Positions 8,506 to 16,628 of a stretch of DNA of 36,626 nucleotides are shown here, one piece after another. A model generated the notes under the pieces. That model did no database searches and was not told the origin of the DNA. It saw only the letters and a program-made list of their open reading frames with translations. Origin of the DNA: Balneolia bacterium (GTDB taxonomy: Bacteria > Bacteroidota > Rhodothermia > Balneolales > Cyclonatronaceae); assembly GCA_022565795.1 (NCBI GenBank), contig JAIUMA010000031.1, positions 1 through 36,626 on the forward strand, written 5' to 3'. The number at the start of each line of letters is the position of its first letter. Positions within the stretch are counted from its first letter, which is position 1. A program made the position numbers and the translations under genes.

Positions 8506-9453
8506 ATGAATTCGACTGAGAGAAGACTTAATATTCTTGTATTACTTCAAAGCAATCAGAATTGGAATGTGGATCAGATGGCTGACCATTTTGGTGTAAG
8601 TAGAAGAACCATTTTCAGAGACCTGAAAACCTTTTCTGAACTGAATCTCCCTGTGACCTATGATAAAGATTCTGGTTACGGAATGATGAAGGGATTTTCC
8701 ATTCCGCCTATCATGTTTAGTCCAAAAGAGCTTTCTACTATATTGATTGGTCTGTCCTTTGTTGAGTCCCAGGTCGACGAAACTATGGTTAAGGATGCTC
8801 AAGCGGTACAGTATAAAATCAATTCTGTTTTGCCAACTGATGAGCTTAAGCAGTTCATGAGAAGTTTGGGTGATAAAACTATCGTTGATCCATATAAAAA
8901 ATATGCTGCTGATAAACGGAAGGGTGGTGACTGGTTTACTATTGCCAACGCGATTGCCAAGCAGCATGAAATACTTTTTGATTACACATCAGCTCGTTCT
9001 GGAGAAAAAAGCAGACGTCGCGTAAAACCATATTTGATTGTTTATTTCACCGACCACTGGACACTAATTGGATATTGTACAGAACGAAAGGGGATCAGGA
9101 GTTTTAGGTTAGATCGTTTATCGGGTGTTGAGCTAACCCCTCAATCGTTTTCGCTAAAACGGGTTCCCGGTGAAAAAGCACTTCTTTTTCGTACAGCTGA
9201 AGATGCTCAAATCATTAAGGTCAGAATACATAACGATCAGCTTATGCGCTTCAAAACTTCTCTTCCTGCAGTAATTGAAAAGGAAACTGCAGTCAAGAAC
9301 TCTGATCATACTGAAATATCTTTTCTTTTCGACAACCTTGATTTCATAAATACCTGGTTATTTTCTTTTCATAATGATGTTAAAGTTCTTGAGCCCAAAG
9401 AGCTCATTGAGAAAAGGGTTATTCTGATTCGCGACATGCTGCGCAACATATAG
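8506..9453 (+). CDS. HTH-WYL family transcriptional regulator
   Basis: 315 residues with the YafY/WYL layout. An N-terminal DeoR-like winged helix spans about residues 1-60 (NSTERRLNILVLLQSN, then FGVSRRTIFRDLKTFSELNLPV as recognition helix and wing). A WYL domain spans about residues 150-215, including RRRVKPYLIVYFTDHWTLIGYCTERKGIRSFRLDRLSGVEL, where the usual W-Y-L core reads W-T-L. A C-terminal WCX-like segment follows. WYL domains sense nucleic-acid or nucleotide ligands in several defence and DNA-damage regulators; the target of this one is unknown. It starts 26 bases after rsmG and may be cotranscribed with it. A second parS lies seven bases after its stop. Confidence 0.88.
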   Translation: MNSTERRLNILVLLQSNQNWNVDQMADHFGVSRRTIFRDLKTFSELNLPVTYDKDSGYGMMKGFSIPPIMFSPKELSTILIGLSFVESQVDETMVKDAQAVQYKINSVLPTDELKQFMRSLGDKTIVDPYKKYAADKRKGGDWFTIANAIAKQHEILFDYTSARSGEKSRRRVKPYLIVYFTDHWTLIGYCTERKGIRSFRLDRLSGVELTPQSFSLKRVPGEKALLFRTAEDAQIIKVRIHNDQLMRFKTSLPAVIEKETAVKNSDHTEISFLFDNLDFINTWLFSFHNDVKVLEPKELIEKRVILIRDMLRNI

Positions 9454-9459
9454 CTGGAA

Positions 9460-9475
9460 TGTTTCACGTGAAACG
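9460..9475. promoter_or_regulatory. parS: parS, second copy (one mismatch)
   Basis: TGTTTCACGTGAAACG matches the parS consensus at 15 of 16 positions; only the last base differs. It lies directly after the stop of the WYL regulator and 1225 bases from the perfect site. Clustered parS sites near gidA-gidB are a usual origin-proximal arrangement. Confidence 0.88.
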
Positions 9476-9513
9476 TGTGGGTTGAGGCGGGGCAGAAGTG
9501 CTAACAATTGGGC

Positions 9514-9548
9514 ACAAAAAAAGGAGAACCGGCAAGCCAGTTCTCCTT
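9514..9548 (-). terminator. Rho-independent terminator on the minus strand
   Basis: On the minus strand AAGGAGAAC pairs with GTTCTCCTT (9-bp stem, extended by a U-G and two G-C pairs to a CTTG loop) and is followed by TTTTTTT. The plus strand has no T-run after the hairpin, so the direction is clear. No annotated minus-strand gene lies upstream. Confidence 0.8.
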
Positions 9549-9672
9549 ACGATCTTAATCTTATGTGTCATTCGCCGAATCGGTAGGGCGCCAAGAAAAA
9601 AATTAGGTGCAAACTCTTGAGACAACATTCTGCTCGAGCTTTTTCACGGCTCGTAAATATGATTAAATATCG
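9514..9672 (-). ncRNA. Candidate small RNA, about 160 nt, family unknown
   Basis: On the minus strand a promoter-like pair (TTGCTG at 9707-9702, 17-base spacer, TAATAT at 9684-9679) lies ahead of a region ending in a strong hairpin plus seven T. Just inside the predicted 5' end, CGAT and TTAATC can pair with GATTAA and ATCG immediately before the terminator hairpin, making a closing stem of about ten pairs. The enclosed part can form small hairpins (CGAGC with GCTCG; CGCC with GGCG). No gene follows on this strand, so a riboswitch leader is unlikely. I do not recognise 6S, SRP, tmRNA or RNase P signatures. The 5' end is only predicted. Confidence 0.45.
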
Positions 9673-9678
9673 AAACGC

Positions 9679-9707
9679 ATATTAGTGAAATCATTCTAAA
9701 ACAGCAA
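9679..9707 (-). promoter_or_regulatory. Possible sigma-70-type promoter of the candidate small RNA
   Basis: TTGCTG and TAATAT on the minus strand, separated by exactly 17 bases. It points toward the terminator at 9514-9548. Judged by eye only. Confidence 0.35.
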
Positions 9708-9893
9708 GATGAACTTGATTAGCTAAAATTAGAATTTCTTGATAATTGATTGATAGCCAATATTTTGATAGAAGTGCAGCTGCTACTCAATTGACGAGTT
9801 AGAGAAAGGGGCGATCTTCATCTCATAGGAGTATTCAGTAAAATTAGTACATTGTAATAACTATAAGCATCATCATTAAAATTTGATTCATTT

Positions 9894-11738
9894 ATGCAGT
9901 TAGTTGGCTTTTGTGTTCCTGATCGGTTTAGTACCGTGTTGAAGGAATTGGCTTCCGGGTTTGAGATGGAGCTGGTTCAGGCAAATAGCGGGGAAGATCT
10001 TAATTCACTAGATGAACTGCGCTGTAAATGTGTGATCGCATTTGATTACAAGGGAGATGTAGAAAACAGACTGAAACTAAAATCAGGTGCAAATGCCATC
10101 ATTGTTTGGTTTAGAGAGGGTGAATCAAAGCTGACTGAAATAGAGCAGGCCCGTTTAAATTCCGGTAGTCAACGCTTTGTGTACAGTGCTGCAGGCACAC
10201 CGGAAGAGTTTAGGGTTGTCGTGGAAAATGTGTTGAAAGACAGAGATCTGGTAAGGCGTATGGAGCACCAGGAGAAAACACTGCTTCGTTTAAATTTGAT
10301 TCATGAACTCACAAGGACGGCACTTAGCCTGGGAAGTGAAGTGGAAATAAGAGAGTTTGTGATGAACAGAATGGCAACCTTCTACAACGCGCCCAGCTGT
10401 ACATATCTGGAATACGGTGCAGATAATGAGCTGTATGTAGTATCTCAGTTAAATTCACGTGGTGTAACACGCCATGGCTTGAACAGGAAAATCAGTGATA
10501 AAAAAAGCTATGAAGAGTGTGTGCGTTGCGGCGACCCTATTATAAATTGCTCAAGCGGAGAAGATAATCAAAAAGGTTTCTTTTGCGCTCCGGTAATAAG
10601 TGATGATAAAACAGTCGGGCTTATTAGAATCAGGTATGTGTCGCCAAAGGTAGAAATTGCTGTTGATCGAATGGTATTACGTGTAGCCGCTGATATTCTT
10701 GCAGCTGCTAAAATCAGGCAGTCGGCTCAAATAGCACTCAGGGCAAGTGAGCAGAAAGCTTCAACAATATTGGATACAACCGTAGATGCTATCATCACAA
10801 TAAATAGCCGGGGAAGTATACAAACGTTTAATCAGGCTGCTGAGGATTTGTTCGGTTATAAGATGGGTGAAGTAGCAGGAAAGAATGTTCATGTATTGAT
10901 GCCATCACCCTATAAAGAAGAGCACGACGGTTATATGAAGAACTATCAGCGGACCGGGGAGAGGCAGATTATCGGTATTGGCCGTGAGGTAACCGGAAGG
11001 CGCAAGGATGGTTCTACGTTCCCGATGTATTTGGCCGTTAGTGAGTACGAAGTTGAGGGAAAACAGATGTTTACGGGAGTTGTACGAGATATGACCGAAG
11101 AGCGGCAGCTGGAGCAGGAGGTCATGAGAATAAGCGAGCATGAGCGACACAGAATAGGTCAGGACCTGCATGATGGACTGGGTCAGATGCTGAGCGGTAT
11201 TGGACTGTTAAGCAGAAGAGTTGCCAATAAGCTGGAAACTGAGGGACATGAGCTTGCCGATGATATGAATGAAATACGGGATCTGATTAAAGAAGCCGAT
11301 GAGTATTCCCGTGGTTTGGCTCGCGGTCTGGTGAAGATAGATTTGGACCGCGGTGGATTTACAGCTGCCATTGAAAAACTGGTGAGACAATCTGAGAGAC
11401 TTTTCAGAATAAAGTGTGAACTGTCCGTAGCGGATGAGGTGGATATTAGCGAGCGTACCAGAGCTGAGCACGTGTACAGGATTATTCAGGAGGCCATAAA
11501 CAATGCGGTAAAACACGGTGAGGCTTCTGAAGTTAAGGTAATCATGACTATGGGGCATCATCTCCTGCGAATCAGTATAAAAGATAATGGCACTGGATTT
11601 CCTAAAAACTGGCGCTCTCAGCAGGGGCTTGGAGTGCGTATAATGGAGTTCAGGTCAAGATTAATCGGAGCACATTTTGAGCAGCACAACCACTCTGAGG
11701 GTGGTGCGATAATAACATGCTCTGTACCGAATCCTTAG
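9894..11738 (+). CDS. Sensor histidine kinase: receiver-like, Cys-rich GAF, FixL-like PAS, HisKA_3
   Basis: 614 residues without transmembrane segments, so cytosolic. Order: a receiver-like N-terminal domain (about 1-115), a short coiled coil, a GAF-like domain (about 140-265), PAS (about 285-405), then HisKA_3 with phospho-acceptor His426 (GQDLHDGLGQ) and an ATPase domain (INNAVKHGE, DNGTGFP, GLGVRIMEFRSRL). The GAF part carries Cys209-x2-Cys212-x6-Cys219-x11-Cys231, a possible metal, Fe-S or disulfide site. The PAS closely resembles FixL. His344 (EEHDGYM) sits where FixL has its haem-binding histidine, and Arg364 (IIGIGR) lies 20 residues later as FixL Arg220 does. The FixL Arg206 position is Asn, and many non-haem PAS domains also keep this motif. 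The NarL-type regulator follows after 19 bases. Oxygen or redox sensing is an inference. Confidence 0.92.
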   Translation: MQLVGFCVPDRFSTVLKELASGFEMELVQANSGEDLNSLDELRCKCVIAFDYKGDVENRLKLKSGANAIIVWFREGESKLTEIEQARLNSGSQRFVYSAAGTPEEFRVVVENVLKDRDLVRRMEHQEKTLLRLNLIHELTRTALSLGSEVEIREFVMNRMATFYNAPSCTYLEYGADNELYVVSQLNSRGVTRHGLNRKISDKKSYEECVRCGDPIINCSSGEDNQKGFFCAPVISDDKTVGLIRIRYVSPKVEIAVDRMVLRVAADILAAAKIRQSAQIALRASEQKASTILDTTVDAIITINSRGSIQTFNQAAEDLFGYKMGEVAGKNVHVLMPSPYKEEHDGYMKNYQRTGERQIIGIGREVTGRRKDGSTFPMYLAVSEYEVEGKQMFTGVVRDMTEERQLEQEVMRISEHERHRIGQDLHDGLGQMLSGIGLLSRRVANKLETEGHELADDMNEIRDLIKEADEYSRGLARGLVKIDLDRGGFTAAIEKLVRQSERLFRIKCELSVADEVDISERTRAEHVYRIIQEAINNAVKHGEASEVKVIMTMGHHLLRISIKDNGTGFPKNWRSQQGLGVRIMEFRSRLIGAHFEQHNHSEGGAIITCSVPNP

Positions 11739-11757
11739 ATAATTTGTATATTCGCAC

Positions 11758-12399
11758 ATGAAAAAAAGAATCTTACTTGTAGATGACCATCCGCTGATCC
11801 GAAAAGGAATCGGGCTTACTCTTGAGGAGTCTCTGTATTATGAAGTGTGCTGTCAGCTCTCTTCAGCCGAAGAGACGATTAACCGAATTGGTGAACTGAA
11901 GCCCGACGGAGCCGTAATCGATATTTCCCTGACCGGAATGAACGGCATAGAATTGGTTAAGCACATCAGAACGATGGACAAAGAGATGAAGATTCTGATG
12001 GTCTCAAGGCATGATGAAGATTTGTATGCCGAAAGAGCACTGCGCGCAGGGGCAAACGGTTATCTGATGAAACAGGTAGCCGCCGAGGAGCTTAACAATG
12101 CCCTGGATAAAATATTTAATGGCGGAATATATCTGAGTGAGGAAATCAGTTCGCGCATGCTTCAGCAGGCAATGGGGAAAGGGCCTAAAGGAGAGCAGTC
12201 ACCGCTGGAAGTGCTGAGTGACAGAGAACTTGAAGTGTTTGAGCTAACGGGTGTGGGTCAGTCTACTAAGGAGATTGCCGACAGAATGCATGTGTCTGCA
12301 AAAACCGTTGAAACCTACAAAGCGAGAATAAGAGAAAAGCTGGGACATGAAAACAGCCACGAGCTCGCAAGGGCGGCTATGAAGTGGGTTGAGGGATAA
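11758..12399 (+). CDS. NarL/FixJ-family response regulator
   Basis: 213 residues. The receiver domain (about 1-120) has the acidic pair in LLVDDHPLIRKG, phospho-acceptor Asp55 in GAVIDISLTGMNG, and the Lys of GYLMKQV. A LuxR/NarL helix-turn-helix (about 145-210) follows: LSDRELEVFELTGVGQSTKEIADRMHVSAKTVETYKARIREKL, with the recognition helix at VSAKTVETYKARI. It is encoded 19 bases after the sensor kinase, so the two form a standard two-component pair. NarL-family regulators commonly bind inverted heptamers such as TACCCCT or GTAGGG. Such a palindrome plus two extra half-sites occurs at 12643-12708, ahead of the next gene, making the porin and YceI genes its probable targets (inference). Confidence 0.96.
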   Translation: MKKRILLVDDHPLIRKGIGLTLEESLYYEVCCQLSSAEETINRIGELKPDGAVIDISLTGMNGIELVKHIRTMDKEMKILMVSRHDEDLYAERALRAGANGYLMKQVAAEELNNALDKIFNGGIYLSEEISSRMLQQAMGKGPKGEQSPLEVLSDRELEVFELTGVGQSTKEIADRMHVSAKTVETYKARIREKLGHENSHELARAAMKWVEG

Positions 12400-12830
12400 A
12401 GAGAAGTAGCCACAGCTTCCTAATTCTTGATTGCATCAACAGCTTTGTGTATAGTTGCAAACCGTTTAATGCACTACACGCCGCCCTTCCAACATTGTGC
12501 ATCAGTCGTATTTCATTAAATAAGTCTGTTTTGCAATTATATACCCGACAGACTGCGTACCCGGGAATAGTGCCCCAGTTTACTTTAAAAGACATTTTAG
12601 AGTCTAATAGTGAATGCAGCCCATTCGGTATTCGCAGCGTAATGTAGGGGAAACCCCTACAAGCTATTAATCCACTCCCCTACAAAAGGAAGGCGAGTAA
12701 ACCCTACAATGATAATCTAATATTAGTCTTATAATATGAGTGTTGATTGGCAAAGCAGTTAGCATAGCAAAATCACAGATTTTTTAAACAACACGAAAGA
12801 ACAATAAACACTCTCTTAAATTTCAATACT
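12400..12830. other. Intergenic regulatory region upstream of the porin-like gene
   Basis: 431 bases with no credible gene. The main content is the operator-like array at 12643-12708. Downstream of it is an AT-rich stretch (12711-12830) expected to hold the promoter and a leader of some length. The 12447-12647 frame has no protein character. Confidence 0.6.
12643..12708. promoter_or_regulatory. Operator array: NarL/NreC-like palindrome plus two direct half-sites
   Basis: TGTAGGGGAAACCCCTACA (12643-12661) is a perfect palindrome of two 8-base arms around AAA. The half-site CCCCTACA recurs at 12677-12684 and as ACCCTACA at 12701-12708. The start-to-start spacings are 23 and 24 bases, close to two helical turns and regular. 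The motif resembles sites of NarL-family regulators such as NreC (GTAGGG-N4-CCCTAC, from memory). A NarL-type regulator is encoded directly upstream. Confidence 0.65.
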
Positions 12831-14102
12831 ATGAAATCAATTGTAACGAAAATCACTCTCCTGGTTGTAGCCATTTCGATGATGGCCGTTAGCGTTTACG
12901 CGCAGCAGTCACGCGACCTTCAGTACTTCCGGGCACCAGATCAAACCGGTATCAACATATTTGAAGCTCCGGCTGAAACAGATGTTGAGTTTAACGGCGT
13001 AAACGTTCGCATAGGCGGATCAAACACGCTTCAGTTCCAGGCGCTGGATCACTCCACAGACGGAACAGCAGACATCTTCTCAATTGGTCCAAACTTTAAC
13101 CTGGCTACATCTAACCTTGATATAGATGCACAGCTGGCTCCGGGCATGAGAATGCACCTGAGAACCTACCTCTCTTCAAGACACCACGCGCAGCCATACG
13201 TTAAAGGTGGTTACCTTCAGGTGGACCGACTGGACTTCATCCAGGAAGACTTCCTTGCAGAGTACATGCAGTACCTGCAAATCAAGTTTGGTCACATGGA
13301 AATCAACTATGGTGATGCTCACTTCAGAAGAAGCGATAACGGACAAACGATCTTTAACCCATTCGTAGGTAACCTGATTATGGATGCCTTTACTACTGAG
13401 GTTGGTGGTGAAATTCTGTTCAGAAATAATGGCTGGCTGGCAATGGTTGGAATGACCAATGGTAAACTGAACCAAAACGTAATTGAGCCGGCTGAAGGCC
13501 AGCTTGCAACTCACGTATCGTTAGTGGGTAAATTAGGCTGGGACAAGCAGATTAACGAAGACCTGCGCGTACGTCTTACAGGTTCTGTGTATCACACGGG
13601 CCGCTCTGCAAGAACCTATCTGTATGCTGGTGACCGTGCAGGATCGCGCTACTACAACATCCTTACCGAAAACTCTGGTGAGTTCCGTATCCCCCGTTTC
13701 GACCCTGCATTCAACAACGAGCTTACATCTATAATGATCAACCCGTTCGTTCGCTACAAAGGTCTTGAGTTCTTCGGCGTAATCGAAACTTCCAGCGGTA
13801 AAGCTCGTGCAGAAGACAGCAGAAGAAACTTCCAGCAATACGCTGCAGACCTTCTATACCGTTTCGGGAATAACGACGATTTCTACATCGGCGGACGTTA
13901 CAACCTGGTAACTGGCGAAACCAACGCAGGCGAAGATGTAGATATCACGCGCTTCAACATTGGCGGCGGCTGGTTTATGACCAAAAACGTACTTACAAAA
14001 GTAGAGTATGTGAACCAGAAGTACGACGGATTCAACCAGGCTTCAGTTTTCAACGGCGGTGAATTCAGCGGTCTGATGATCGAAGCTGTAATCAGCTTCT
14101 AA
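12831..14102 (+). CDS. Porin-like outer-membrane beta-barrel protein
   Basis: 423 residues. A signal peptide with hydrophobic core LLVVAISMMAVS and likely cleavage after VYA (about residue 24) begins the protein. The remainder is made of alternating amphipathic strands, often ending in aromatic residues (DFYIGGRYNLVTGE, FNIGGGWFMTKNVLTKVEYVNQKY), and it ends in ...VISF, the terminal Phe expected of BAM-assembled barrels. I do not recognise a named family; it looks like a specific channel or phosphate-selective-porin-type barrel. Substrate unknown. It follows the two-component genes by a long leader with the operator array, and a terminator and a YceI gene come next. The codon choice looks more uniform than in its neighbours, suggestive of good expression, but I could not quantify it. 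Confidence 0.8.
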   Translation: MKSIVTKITLLVVAISMMAVSVYAQQSRDLQYFRAPDQTGINIFEAPAETDVEFNGVNVRIGGSNTLQFQALDHSTDGTADIFSIGPNFNLATSNLDIDAQLAPGMRMHLRTYLSSRHHAQPYVKGGYLQVDRLDFIQEDFLAEYMQYLQIKFGHMEINYGDAHFRRSDNGQTIFNPFVGNLIMDAFTTEVGGEILFRNNGWLAMVGMTNGKLNQNVIEPAEGQLATHVSLVGKLGWDKQINEDLRVRLTGSVYHTGRSARTYLYAGDRAGSRYYNILTENSGEFRIPRFDPAFNNELTSIMINPFVRYKGLEFFGVIETSSGKARAEDSRRNFQQYAADLLYRFGNNDDFYIGGRYNLVTGETNAGEDVDITRFNIGGGWFMTKNVLTKVEYVNQKYDGFNQASVFNGGEFSGLMIEAVISF

Positions 14103-14123
14103 AGCAACACCAGAAAAAGAATA

Positions 14124-14153
14124 AAACCTGCCGGCGCCTAAGCCGGCAGGTTT
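14124..14153 (+). terminator. Terminator-like hairpin after the porin-like gene
   Basis: AAACCTGCCGGC (14124-14135) pairs perfectly with GCCGGCAGGTTT (14142-14153) around a 6-base loop. Only three T end the stem, followed by AACAAAAAAGAGG, so read-through into the YceI gene 21 bases later is possible. It may act as a partial terminator or an mRNA 3' stabiliser. Confidence 0.75.
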
Positions 14154-14174
14154 AACAAAAAAGAGGACAAAGAA

Positions 14175-14786
14175 ATGAAATTACTAAGCACACTTCTTCT
14201 AATTATAGCACTACCCGTCGCACTTGTGGCACAGCCGGCAAACGACGTGGCAAAAACGACTTTCGTAATAGATAACGGCAGCAGCACTATGGTAATCGAA
14301 GGTGGATCAACCGTAGGAAGCTGGGATGCCGATGTAAAGGTACTTGAAGGTGAATTTAAGATAGATATGGAGGCACTTGGCAACGGTGTTAATGGTAACG
14401 GAATCTTTGAGCTTTCCACATTCAGCGTGCCGGTTGGTAATATTGAGTCAGACAGCCGCAGAATGAACCGCAATATCTACAGCTACCTAAAAGAAGATGA
14501 TCATCCCAACATCACATTTACAATGACCAGCGCTGAAGTTACAGAAAACAACGGCAGTTCGTATGAAGTACTGGTGAACGGTGTGATTAACGCAGCAGGA
14601 GCTGATCACGAGGTAAGCTTCACCACTGAAGTAACAATAAACGGTAACGGCAGCCTGGTAATAAACGGGAAAAAGCCACTTAATTTCAGTGACTTTGGAA
14701 TAGATCGCCCTTCAGCTATGCTGGGTACCGTGCGTGCCGATGAAGAGATTGAGATTGTGTATAACCTCGTGCTAACAAGCAGATAA
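14175..14786 (+). CDS. YceI family periplasmic protein 1
   Basis: 203 residues with a signal peptide (MKLLSTLLLIIALPVALVA, likely cut near residue 19). The rest is one YceI lipocalin-like domain: the N-terminal FVIDNGSSTMVIEGGSTVGSWDADV (where many members have S-x-V-x-F or H), the SDSRRMNRNIYSYLKEDDHPNITF block typical of the family, and LNFSDFGIDRPSAMLGTVRADEEIEIVYNL at the end. YceI proteins bind isoprenoids or amides in the periplasm; some are linked to quinone or stress biology, and the ligand here is unknown. A GAGG ribosome site lies about 8 bases before the ATG. It follows the porin gene and precedes a second YceI gene on the same strand. Confidence 0.92.
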   Translation: MKLLSTLLLIIALPVALVAQPANDVAKTTFVIDNGSSTMVIEGGSTVGSWDADVKVLEGEFKIDMEALGNGVNGNGIFELSTFSVPVGNIESDSRRMNRNIYSYLKEDDHPNITFTMTSAEVTENNGSSYEVLVNGVINAAGADHEVSFTTEVTINGNGSLVINGKKPLNFSDFGIDRPSAMLGTVRADEEIEIVYNLVLTSR

Positions 14787-14830
14787 GAGAAAGAAGTATA
14801 AGAAACACAAAGCAGTACAGAAGTATCTTT

Positions 14831-14888
14831 GACCTCATAAAGTGGGGAAGTCCGGTAGGGTAACATCAACCGGCTCCCCCTTTAGGTC
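14831..14888. other. Long imperfect hairpin between the two YceI genes
   Basis: GACCT (14831-14835) pairs with AGGTC (14884-14888). Inside, an AAAGTGGGGAAGTCCGGT-type arm pairs imperfectly with ACCGGCTCCCCCTTT around a loop of about 12 bases. No T-run follows on the plus strand, so an RNA-processing or attenuator hairpin is as likely as a terminator. Confidence 0.5.
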
Positions 14889-14924
14889 GAAACAGAAACA
14901 GCCCGAACCCAAAGCCATACAGCC

Positions 14925-15581
14925 ATGAAACCTACAGCCCTTAGACTACGCCTTATTTTTATAGCGATTGTGTTTGGAATAGCAGCTTTTCTGGCGGGGC
15001 AGGTGAATGCGCAGGTATCGGGTAACATTCAGCTAGTGGCTTCTGAAAGCAAGCTCTGGATAGAAGGCTCCTCAACGGTACATGATTTCAACTGCGAGGC
15101 CGGGCATATAGTGGCCTACGCCAATATTGGACAGCCGAATGTGGAGACGCTCGAAGACGGAACAACAATTAGCAACGACAACGGCAGCGTAACGCTCGAT
15201 ATTCCGGTATACGATTTCGACTGTGGAAGAAACCGGATGAACCGAGACTTTTACGGAGCCTTGAGGGCAGAAGATCACCCTTCCATAAATTTTGAGTATT
15301 ACTCTTCCAGACTGATAACGAATATTGGCCCCTACTGCCATCCGTTTCAGCTGAAAGTTAAAGGCCGTCTGTCGGTTGCCGGCAATGGTCAGGACATTGA
15401 AGTACTTGTAGATATTGAGCCCTGTGAGGAAAACAGATTCCTGTTAACAGGCTCTAAAGTGATAAACATGCTCGACTTTGGCATTGAGCCACCGAGCGCA
15501 ATGATGGGCTTAATCCGGGCAAATGAGGAGCTGAAGGTGTTCTTTTCACTAACAGCAGAGCAAACCCCGGAAGAAGAGTAA
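14925..15581 (+). CDS. YceI family periplasmic protein 2, Cys-containing
   Basis: 218 residues. The N-terminal hydrophobic stretch LRLIFIAIVFGIAAFLAGQVNA is a signal peptide, probably cut near residue 29. The YceI domain follows: LWIEGSSTVHDFNCEAG, then CGRNRMNRDFYGALRAEDHPSINFEY and VINMLDFGIEPPSAMMGLIRANEELKVFFSLT. Unlike YceI 1 it keeps the S-T-V-H-D-F-N-C start and has four cysteines (FNC, FDCGRN, GPYCHP, IEPCEE), which could form periplasmic disulfides. The two paralogues share only the family core. It is separated from YceI 1 by 138 bases with a long hairpin, and may have its own control. The acidic C-terminus (EQTPEEE) is not part of the fold. Confidence 0.92.
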   Translation: MKPTALRLRLIFIAIVFGIAAFLAGQVNAQVSGNIQLVASESKLWIEGSSTVHDFNCEAGHIVAYANIGQPNVETLEDGTTISNDNGSVTLDIPVYDFDCGRNRMNRDFYGALRAEDHPSINFEYYSSRLITNIGPYCHPFQLKVKGRLSVAGNGQDIEVLVDIEPCEENRFLLTGSKVINMLDFGIEPPSAMMGLIRANEELKVFFSLTAEQTPEEE

Positions 15582-15666
15582 AAGAGTTTGTTAGGTGCAA
15601 ACGCGGCTTTAGGCTGAACTGAACTGAATTTTAAAATCAAACGCGGAAACCAGGTAACAAAAACGG

Positions 15667-16500
15667 ATGCACGGCGGAGAACTTGCATATAACCCATCTA
15701 AGCTTAAAGGCAATACTGCCGTCGAAAAGCTCAGGTATTTCCTGACGGAAGCAAAAAGCAGGCTTCGGGAAAAAGGGCTGGACTCAGGCAGTAAGGTGAG
15801 ATTCAGAGGGGATGTGCTTGAAGTTTCAGTAGACCGGAGTGAATTGACCAGCAAGCAAGATGAAGCGGCAAGTGATTCACTTATATACATTAAAACAGGT
15901 CTGCTAATATCGGTACTCGGGAAATTAATCTCAGAGGCAGGCTACAAACCGGTAGTGAGAACCTTTCCCCGTTTCGATGAGCCGGACCTGGTTGGTTTTG
16001 TCTATATCGGAAATAACATGGACAGCCAGAAACGTACCAGACAAAAAGAGAATAACGTAAATAAGATCGATGGTTACGAACTGTATCTGGCCGAGCGGAT
16101 TGCCTCGAAAAGATCACTTAGTCTTACTCTTGTAGATAACAGCAGTGACCTCAAAAAAATGAGGGATACACTGATAGAAGGATTAGAATGCTGCAAAGAC
16201 TCAGACATGAGCCATACTGTTAAAGCGGAAATTAAAGCTGCGACATCAAAAACAGAGCATATAAAAACAAATCAGAATGTGATTATAGTGAGCTCAAGGC
16301 AGAACACGCCGACGTCATGGATAGGAACCGGATTCTTTTTTGGAGAAATGATGGAGGAAATGAGCATGCTGAACAGGGCGGTAAAGGCATTAAGCCTCAA
16401 GAGCTGTCCGGCACATTTCCAGCCGATGCTTCAGTCGATTACCCAGGGAAGCGCACGGCATCCGCAGCTTGTATTTGTGATTGAGCCATCACAACAATGA
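15667..16500 (+). CDS. Nitroreductase-fold protein resembling the Acg family
   Basis: 277 residues with no signal peptide. The pattern suits the Acg-like branch of the nitroreductase fold: VRFRGDVLEVSVDRSEL (about residues 44-60), DSLIYIKTGLLISVLGKLISEAGYKPVVRTFPRFDEPDLVGFVYIG (about 75-120), YELYLAERIASKRSLSLT near residue 143, and WIGTGFFFGEMMEEMSMLNRAVKALSLKSCPAHFQPM near the C-terminus, matching the 'W-x-x-x-G...A...L' helix of the family. It is shorter than typical Acg proteins (about 330 residues). The substrate is unknown, and FMN binding is not assured. Mycobacterial Acg is controlled by DosR, a NarL-family regulator, which fits the neighbouring two-component genes. Assignment is by motif spacing only. 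Confidence 0.55.
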   Translation: MHGGELAYNPSKLKGNTAVEKLRYFLTEAKSRLREKGLDSGSKVRFRGDVLEVSVDRSELTSKQDEAASDSLIYIKTGLLISVLGKLISEAGYKPVVRTFPRFDEPDLVGFVYIGNNMDSQKRTRQKENNVNKIDGYELYLAERIASKRSLSLTLVDNSSDLKKMRDTLIEGLECCKDSDMSHTVKAEIKAATSKTEHIKTNQNVIIVSSRQNTPTSWIGTGFFFGEMMEEMSMLNRAVKALSLKSCPAHFQPMLQSITQGSARHPQLVFVIEPSQQ

Positions 16501-16591: not shown

Positions 16592-16628
16592 AAGGGCTGC
16601 ACCCGAGAGGATGCAGCCCTTACTTTTT
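16592..16628. terminator. Bidirectional terminator between the Acg-like gene and gyrA
   Basis: AAGGGCTGCA (16592-16601) pairs with TGCAGCCCTT (16612-16621) around a 10-base loop. T-rich tracts lie on both sides (ACTTTTTC on plus; TTTCTTTTG on minus), suiting the two convergent genes. Confidence 0.88.

Follow-up and report, generated by a model that had tools for sequence, protein, structure and literature searches.

A putative heme-gated two-component switch beside a porin–YceI–YceI–Acg-like operon in Balneolales

Introduction

Is a sensor kinase–response regulator pair that lies beside a porin gene, two YceI genes and an Acg-like gene in a Balneolia bacterium dedicated to the control of those genes, and which part of the kinase would sense the signal? 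We examined this question in contig JAIUMA010000031.1 of assembly GCA_022565795.1 (Balneolales, Cyclonatronaceae), the whole analyzed stretch of 36,626 nucleotides being referred to as the window. A sequence-only reading of the window had proposed an oxygen- or redox-responsive envelope module made up of these six genes, and all six open reading frames lie where it placed them (Table 1). Computation covered the identity of the genes, their synteny, the conservation and uniqueness of the operator, the residues of the heme site and the folds. Taken as a whole, the locus is probably best explained by a dedicated, local, heme-gated two-component switch of the porin–YceI–YceI–Acg-like operon.

Results

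Conservation of the gene cluster and of a predicted operator

A neighbourhood survey of related genomes, named beforehand by the sequence-only reading as a test that the module could fail, revealed the same gene order (kinase, regulator, porin, YceI, YceI, Acg-like) in at least 15 Balneolales genomes from several families; the kinase–regulator pair is thus a stable neighbour of the operon. Spacing inside the operon was short in these relatives, and the gap between the regulator and porin genes was 180-540 bp in most genomes. Among 60 relatives, the porin was identified in 42 and a kinase ortholog in 20. The presence of the kinase was clustered on the porin tree, with approximately 9 label changes compared with 21 expected for shuffled labels. 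A single origin of the kinase-linked porins is unsupported because the tree needs these approximately 9 changes, so that there must have been gain, loss, paralogy or replacement of porins. At locus L087 (genome G044) a kinase-linked porin groups in the tree with kinase-free porins of the same family, suggesting that the porin was replaced inside the operon.

The NarL-like half-sites noted earlier ahead of the porin gene (12643-12708) are real and consist of a perfect palindrome followed by two further half-sites. By chance, 0.65 matches to the palindrome would be expected in the window at 3 mismatches; the observed copy has none. The sequence TGTAGGGGAAACCCCTACA is present as a single exact copy in its own 3.6-Mb genome. 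At 2 mismatches, 5 extra places were found compared with 9 for a reversed control, and a large regulon in this genome was rejected because the weaker matches did not exceed the control and lay mostly inside genes. Comparison across loci showed that the operator tracks the kinase–regulator pair: it preceded the porin gene, with at most 3 mismatches, at 17 of 24 kinase-positive loci compared with 2 of 88 others (Fisher P = 9.5e-13, a value that overstates independence because the loci are related). The two exceptions were L102, where the contig ends just upstream and the kinase status is unknown, and genome G009, which is 88% complete. A scan of 34 relatives gave a similar picture. Nearly all sites with at most 1 mismatch in kinase-positive genomes preceded the porin gene, a related porin gene (family h34), or both, whereas kinase-negative genomes had few such sites and none placed before the porin. 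Weaker tandem copies at 24-bp spacing recurred in the f3 family, and a second palindrome was found ahead of the Acg-like gene at L100 and L104 and ahead of a short diverged open reading frame in the same place at L103. Because the operator is unique in the genome and tied to kinase-positive porin loci, a dedicated local circuit is favoured over a global regulon.

Several further sites were recorded. The h34 genes form a second, distant porin-like family, located near or away from the operon (L075, 11243-12607; L068, 9016-10314; L069, 1058-2350; L090, 9707-10999), and those of L075, L068 and L069 have the same palindrome upstream. At L074 (G048, 8942-11315) the palindrome precedes YceI–YceI–Acg without a porin, and no kinase ortholog was found in that genome at E 1e-60. 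Matches of the GGG...CCC type before the porin in Flavobacteriaceae were set aside: a stricter scan found none ahead of the porin there, and the matches fall in YceI coding sequence because the YceI–porin gap is usually only 20-50 bp.

The conserved palindrome would be bound by the adjacent regulator. It is improbable that an unrelated regulator binds it while the kinase–regulator pair is a mere neighbour controlling genes elsewhere. Other regulators do adjoin the porin–YceI–YceI trio elsewhere (Rrf2 in Marinilabiliaceae), and shared ancestry accounts for part of the co-occurrence of the kinase with the operator. However, there is about one site per genome, between the regulator gene and its neighbour, its palindromic GGG...CCC form resembles DosR and OsdR boxes, and it also lies before isolated porin paralogs of the kinase-positive genomes G015 and G031.

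The sensor kinase and the response regulator

The kinase had been taken to be cytosolic with a FixL-like PAS domain, and both assignments held. It has no membrane segment (highest 19-residue Kyte-Doolittle mean 1.3), and an NCBIfam profile search matched its PAS to FixL (4.9e-45). Residues 281 to 401-412 aligned with solved FixL heme domains, giving a PAS of approximately 281-409, in which His344 aligned with the proximal heme His of FixL and Arg364 with the distal Arg. His344 is the predicted heme ligand. The FixL-type His and Arg were retained in 13 of 14 related kinases, the exception being that of genome G004. The phospho-acceptor, His426, lies in HisKA_3. Classification as FixL proper was rejected, as the kinase core is HisKA_3 rather than HisKA and the score for whole FixL (NF041777) was 154 compared with a cut-off of 850; the PAS alone matches. 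On these comparisons the kinase would sense like FixL yet is not FixL.

The earlier assignment of a Cys-rich GAF domain to the N-terminus stood for the cysteines but not for the GAF. Cys 209, 212, 219 and 231 form a CX2CX6CX11C pattern that is invariant among the f1 (window-type) kinases, including that of G004. Pfam found no GAF in the N-terminus at E up to 1, profile comparison with the true GAF of the f3 kinases gave no match, and a PDB profile search with the N-terminal region returned a chance match only; a GAF in the window kinase is therefore unsupported. The N-termini vary, with the four cysteines in f1, a Pfam GAF in f3 and a receiver-like domain in a Rhodohalobacter-like clade. The FixL-type PAS is common to all of these kinases and is thus the better candidate for the shared signal. 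We consider it unlikely that sensing falls mainly to the four-Cys region, as an Fe-S cluster or a zinc/thiol switch, with a structural role for the PAS and with the pair still controlling the operon through the palindrome. The invariance of the pattern even in G004, whose kinase no longer has the heme His and Arg, would fit such a sensor; its restriction to f1 kinases, when the other two groups carry different N-termini and share the PAS, speaks against it.

Two observations concern individual kinase loci. The kinase gene of L078 (G008, approximately 13515-14879) has an in-frame stop in the draft genome. The genes just past the kinase gene in f3 genomes, judged by eye from their sequences, include those for a HemN-like protein and a universal stress protein, a setting typical of oxygen-responsive loci.

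The regulator had been described as NarL-type, and this was upheld. Its nearest solved relative is DevR/DosR of Mycobacterium tuberculosis (E 3.7e-26), its scores with NarL/DevR-type models far exceed that with FixJ, and it has the receiver, GerE helix-turn-helix and conserved phospho-Asp of the DosR/NarL family.

The proposed circuit

In the circuit that we propose, the soluble kinase would bind heme in its FixL-type PAS, and gain or loss of a gas ligand, most likely oxygen but possibly nitric oxide or carbon monoxide, would set its activity. The kinase would phosphorylate the DosR-like regulator, which would bind the palindrome at 12643-12661 and spread over the 23-24 bp-spaced half-sites up to the promoter, activating the porin–YceI–YceI–Acg-like transcription unit. 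The third half-site would lie across the -35 region. That the regulator activates the operon and does not repress it is suggested by the run of half-sites up to a possible promoter and by analogy with DosR. The hairpin after the porin gene would set the level or stability of porin mRNA apart from that of the downstream genes. The products would remodel the envelope under a changed oxygen or redox state: the porin would alter permeability, the YceI proteins would serve as periplasmic carriers of an isoprenoid quinone or another polyisoprenoid lipid, and the Acg-like protein would be a relative, no longer enzymatic, of a flavin-binding protein. We infer that heme and its ligand are bound, that a phosphorelay operates and that the operon is activated and not repressed, as well as the YceI cargo and the role of the Acg-like protein.

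Several findings weigh against this circuit. Genome G004 still has the operon, although its kinase (L077, 5677-7539) no longer has the heme His or the distal Arg and keeps the four cysteines; its operator is degenerate too, and as one case the joint loss of heme residues and operator quality is only suggestive. G009 has operator and operon, and no kinase ortholog was found in this 88% complete genome. The palindrome of the Rhodohalobacter-like clade is degenerate, often with 4 mismatches to the strict pattern and a relaxed outer TGTA/TACA. Most porin–YceI units of Bacteroidota are without such a kinase, so that their basic function need not be oxygen-linked. The palindrome could also be bound by another factor, kinase and operator just marking the same type of locus. 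The recognition helix of the regulator differs in the Rhodohalobacter-like clade (ESHRAN compared with ETYKAR); in this single clade, the changed helix and the relaxed operator agree with co-evolution.

A hairpin between the porin and YceI genes

Where the gap between the porin and YceI genes was usable, almost all kinase-linked relatives had a strong hairpin in it (z -3.1 to -7.4, 11 tested). The stems differ freely in sequence between genomes and the structure stays. T-rich tails occur in some relatives. The window hairpin is without a U-run on the operon strand and, for this reason, is more likely to act in processing or stability than to terminate transcription fully. An Rfam scan of the window identified no RNA family. 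At the other end of the operon, gyrA is convergent to the Acg-like gene, and the hairpin between them is plausibly the end of the operon.

A widespread porin–YceI–YceI trio

The porin reached the threshold of no Pfam family and matched nothing in NCBIfam. Its AlphaFold model (predicted local distance difference test score, pLDDT, 78) gave 255 PDB matches below 0.001, of which the ones listed were porins or porin-based designs; this confirms the porin-like barrel of the sequence-only reading. Its two YceI proteins were likewise substantiated, at 47.1 and 33.4 bits for PF04264 compared with a gathering score of 23.7. The porin is approximately 57-62% identical in distant Bacteroidota; a scan of GTDB genomes gave at least 588 relatives of it, and 81 of 296 genomes sampled from the phylum have one. 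At 102 of 113 loci the porin had at least two YceI genes as neighbours, mostly in the order YceI–porin–YceI in Flavobacteriaceae and Marinilabiliaceae; several of the loci without two YceI genes are contig ends and some are real (e.g. L086, L093). The kinase is absent from trio loci of other groups (Flavobacteriaceae, Marinilabiliaceae). Because the trio is far more widespread than the kinase–regulator pair, porin and YceI form the core, and the heme-type two-component system is a Balneolales addition or a retained variant.

Other regulatory genes were seen near the trio. At eight Marinilabiliaceae loci (L116, L118-L121, L123-L125) the gene after it encodes an Rrf2-family regulator containing several cysteines, another redox-type regulator. 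At L115, L122, L130 and L155 (Sinomicrobium and a Flavobacteriaceae metagenome-assembled genome) a coenzyme A-transferase-like gene, a PAS kinase and a response regulator are nearby; the PAS of this kinase also has a His, in an NHDQH segment, and some of these loci have a UspA-like gene.

YceI lipocalins bind ubiquinone-8, and one acts in lipid peroxyl-radical detoxification (PMC9113575). Menaquinone or another polyisoprenoid would be a reasonable cargo for the YceI proteins here. No account of the porin–YceI unit or of Balneolales oxygen sensing was found in the open-access literature, where absence is not proof. We tentatively suggest, as a doubtful possibility, that the trio constitutes an envelope system, present across Bacteroidota and so far undescribed, for moving or buffering an isoprenoid quinone or similar lipid between periplasm and outer membrane, and that Balneolales have brought it under heme-gated, DosR-like control together with an Acg derivative no longer able to bind flavin.

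A diverged Acg-like protein

The Acg-like protein had no Pfam match. The sole PDB match of its AlphaFold model (pLDDT 84) below E 0.001 was M. smegmatis Acg (2ymv, E 5.9e-8). The Acg fold suggested by the sequence-only reading was therefore recovered, whereas its nitroreductase label is not to be carried over, because the flavin mononucleotide (FMN) motif of the protein's relatives is missing. Acg relatives at this operon position fall into three forms. One of them, f9, is recognisably an Acg and has the RAPSxxNxQPW segment (NF047509 down to 1.9e-31, below the curated cut-off; PDB 2ymv, 1.6e-14). The window form (f14) matched f9 (hhalign, 98.7%) in an alignment that starts only after this segment, and scored 12.9 bits with NF047509 compared with a curated cut-off of 199. 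The f50 form is shorter and retains only the Trp of the segment. Because this N-terminal segment of nitroreductase-fold proteins takes part in the binding of FMN, the ability to bind flavin may have disappeared in two lineages that kept the gene in the operon. Alternatively, the window protein might still use other residues to bind FMN or a different flavin, as an active reductase or a flavin-binding protein, which we regard as possible but unlikely: its model matches 2ymv and it retains the central FPRF-EP and W...G segments, but the RAPSxxNxQPW of its f9 relatives and of 2ymv is absent, as is most of it from f50. No nitroreductase activity was detected for mycobacterial Acg (PMC3110807).

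Table 1. Genes and predicted elements of the locus (positions in the window)
Feature	Position	Strand	Description or basis
Soluble sensor histidine kinase, 614 amino acids	9894..11738	+	N-terminal four-Cys region, FixL-type PAS, HisKA_3, HATPase_c (Pfam)
NarL/DosR-type response regulator	11758..12399	+	Receiver and GerE helix-turn-helix (Pfam); phospho-acceptor Asp55
Predicted primary operator	12643..12661	unstranded	Perfect 19-bp palindrome TGTAGGGGAAACCCCTACA
Second half-site	12677..12684	+	CCCCTACA; 23 bp downstream of first
Third half-site	12702..12708	+	CCCTACA; 24 bp beyond second
Possible -10 element	12730..12735	+	TATAAT; stretch common to nearest relatives
Outer-membrane porin-fold protein, 423 amino acids	12831..14102	+	Predicted structure
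Hairpin between porin and YceI genes	14124..14153	+	12-bp stem, -24.7 kcal/mol, z -6.4
YceI lipocalin-like protein	14175..14786	+	Cysteine-free, N-terminal signal-like sequence; Pfam
Second YceI protein	14925..15581	+	Four cysteines, N-terminal signal-like sequence; Pfam
Diverged Acg-fold protein, 277 amino acids	15667..16500	+	Without RAPSxxNxQPW segment; fold and profile comparison
Hairpin between Acg-like gene and convergent gyrA	16592..16621	not assigned	

Discussion

If the proposed circuit is true, heme-gated DosR/FixL-like control extends to a defined outer-envelope operon in relatives within Bacteroidota, and the predicted operator is exact and hence directly testable. The unnamed porin family, approximately 60% identical across distant Bacteroidota and accompanied by two YceI genes, offers a conserved partner for YceI proteins and a way into their unsettled function. 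A true Acg and two decayed forms, all occupying one position in the operon, make up a natural experiment on Acg function.

The locus resembles the mycobacterial DosS/DosT-DosR (DevR) and Streptomyces OsdK-OsdR systems in combining a HisKA_3-type heme sensor kinase (heme being predicted here) with a NarL-family regulator. The predicted operator has the palindromic GGG...CCC form of the DosR and OsdR operators (DosR, TTSGGGACTWWAGTCCCSAA; OsdR, AGGGCCGATCGGCCCT), and an Acg-family protein, among the targets there, is also a putative target here. In contrast to these systems, the heme PAS here is of FixL type where theirs is a heme GAF, the outer part of the operator is TGTA...TACA, and the putative targets are a porin, two YceI proteins and an Acg-like protein without the usual N-terminal flavin motif, in one local operon compared with approximately 50 genes. 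The heme-type PAS with the FixL His and Arg is shared with FixL-FixJ of rhizobia. The FixL kinase, however, is of HisKA type, the regulator here is NarL/DevR-like and not FixJ, and the targets differ.

For the target genes, BcnA/LcoA of Burkholderia provide a precedent for YceI lipocalins in a stress-responsive envelope operon (PMC9113575), but no cytochrome b561 gene is present here; a porin and an Acg-like gene are present instead, with a heme-sensor two-component system upstream. The Acg-like protein has the same fold as M. smegmatis Acg (2ymv), with approximately 10% identity over the structural alignment and without the RAPSxxNxQPW segment. The porin shares the barrel fold with OprP/OprO and general porins (template-modeling score approximately 0.6 with OprO/OprP, approximately 11-12% identity), a match from which its substrate is not readable. 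Taken together, a DosS/T-DosR- and OsdK-OsdR-like circuit and FixL-like sensing are the known components, a one-operon switch with envelope targets would be new, and the porin–YceI trio is the part that lies farthest from known systems.

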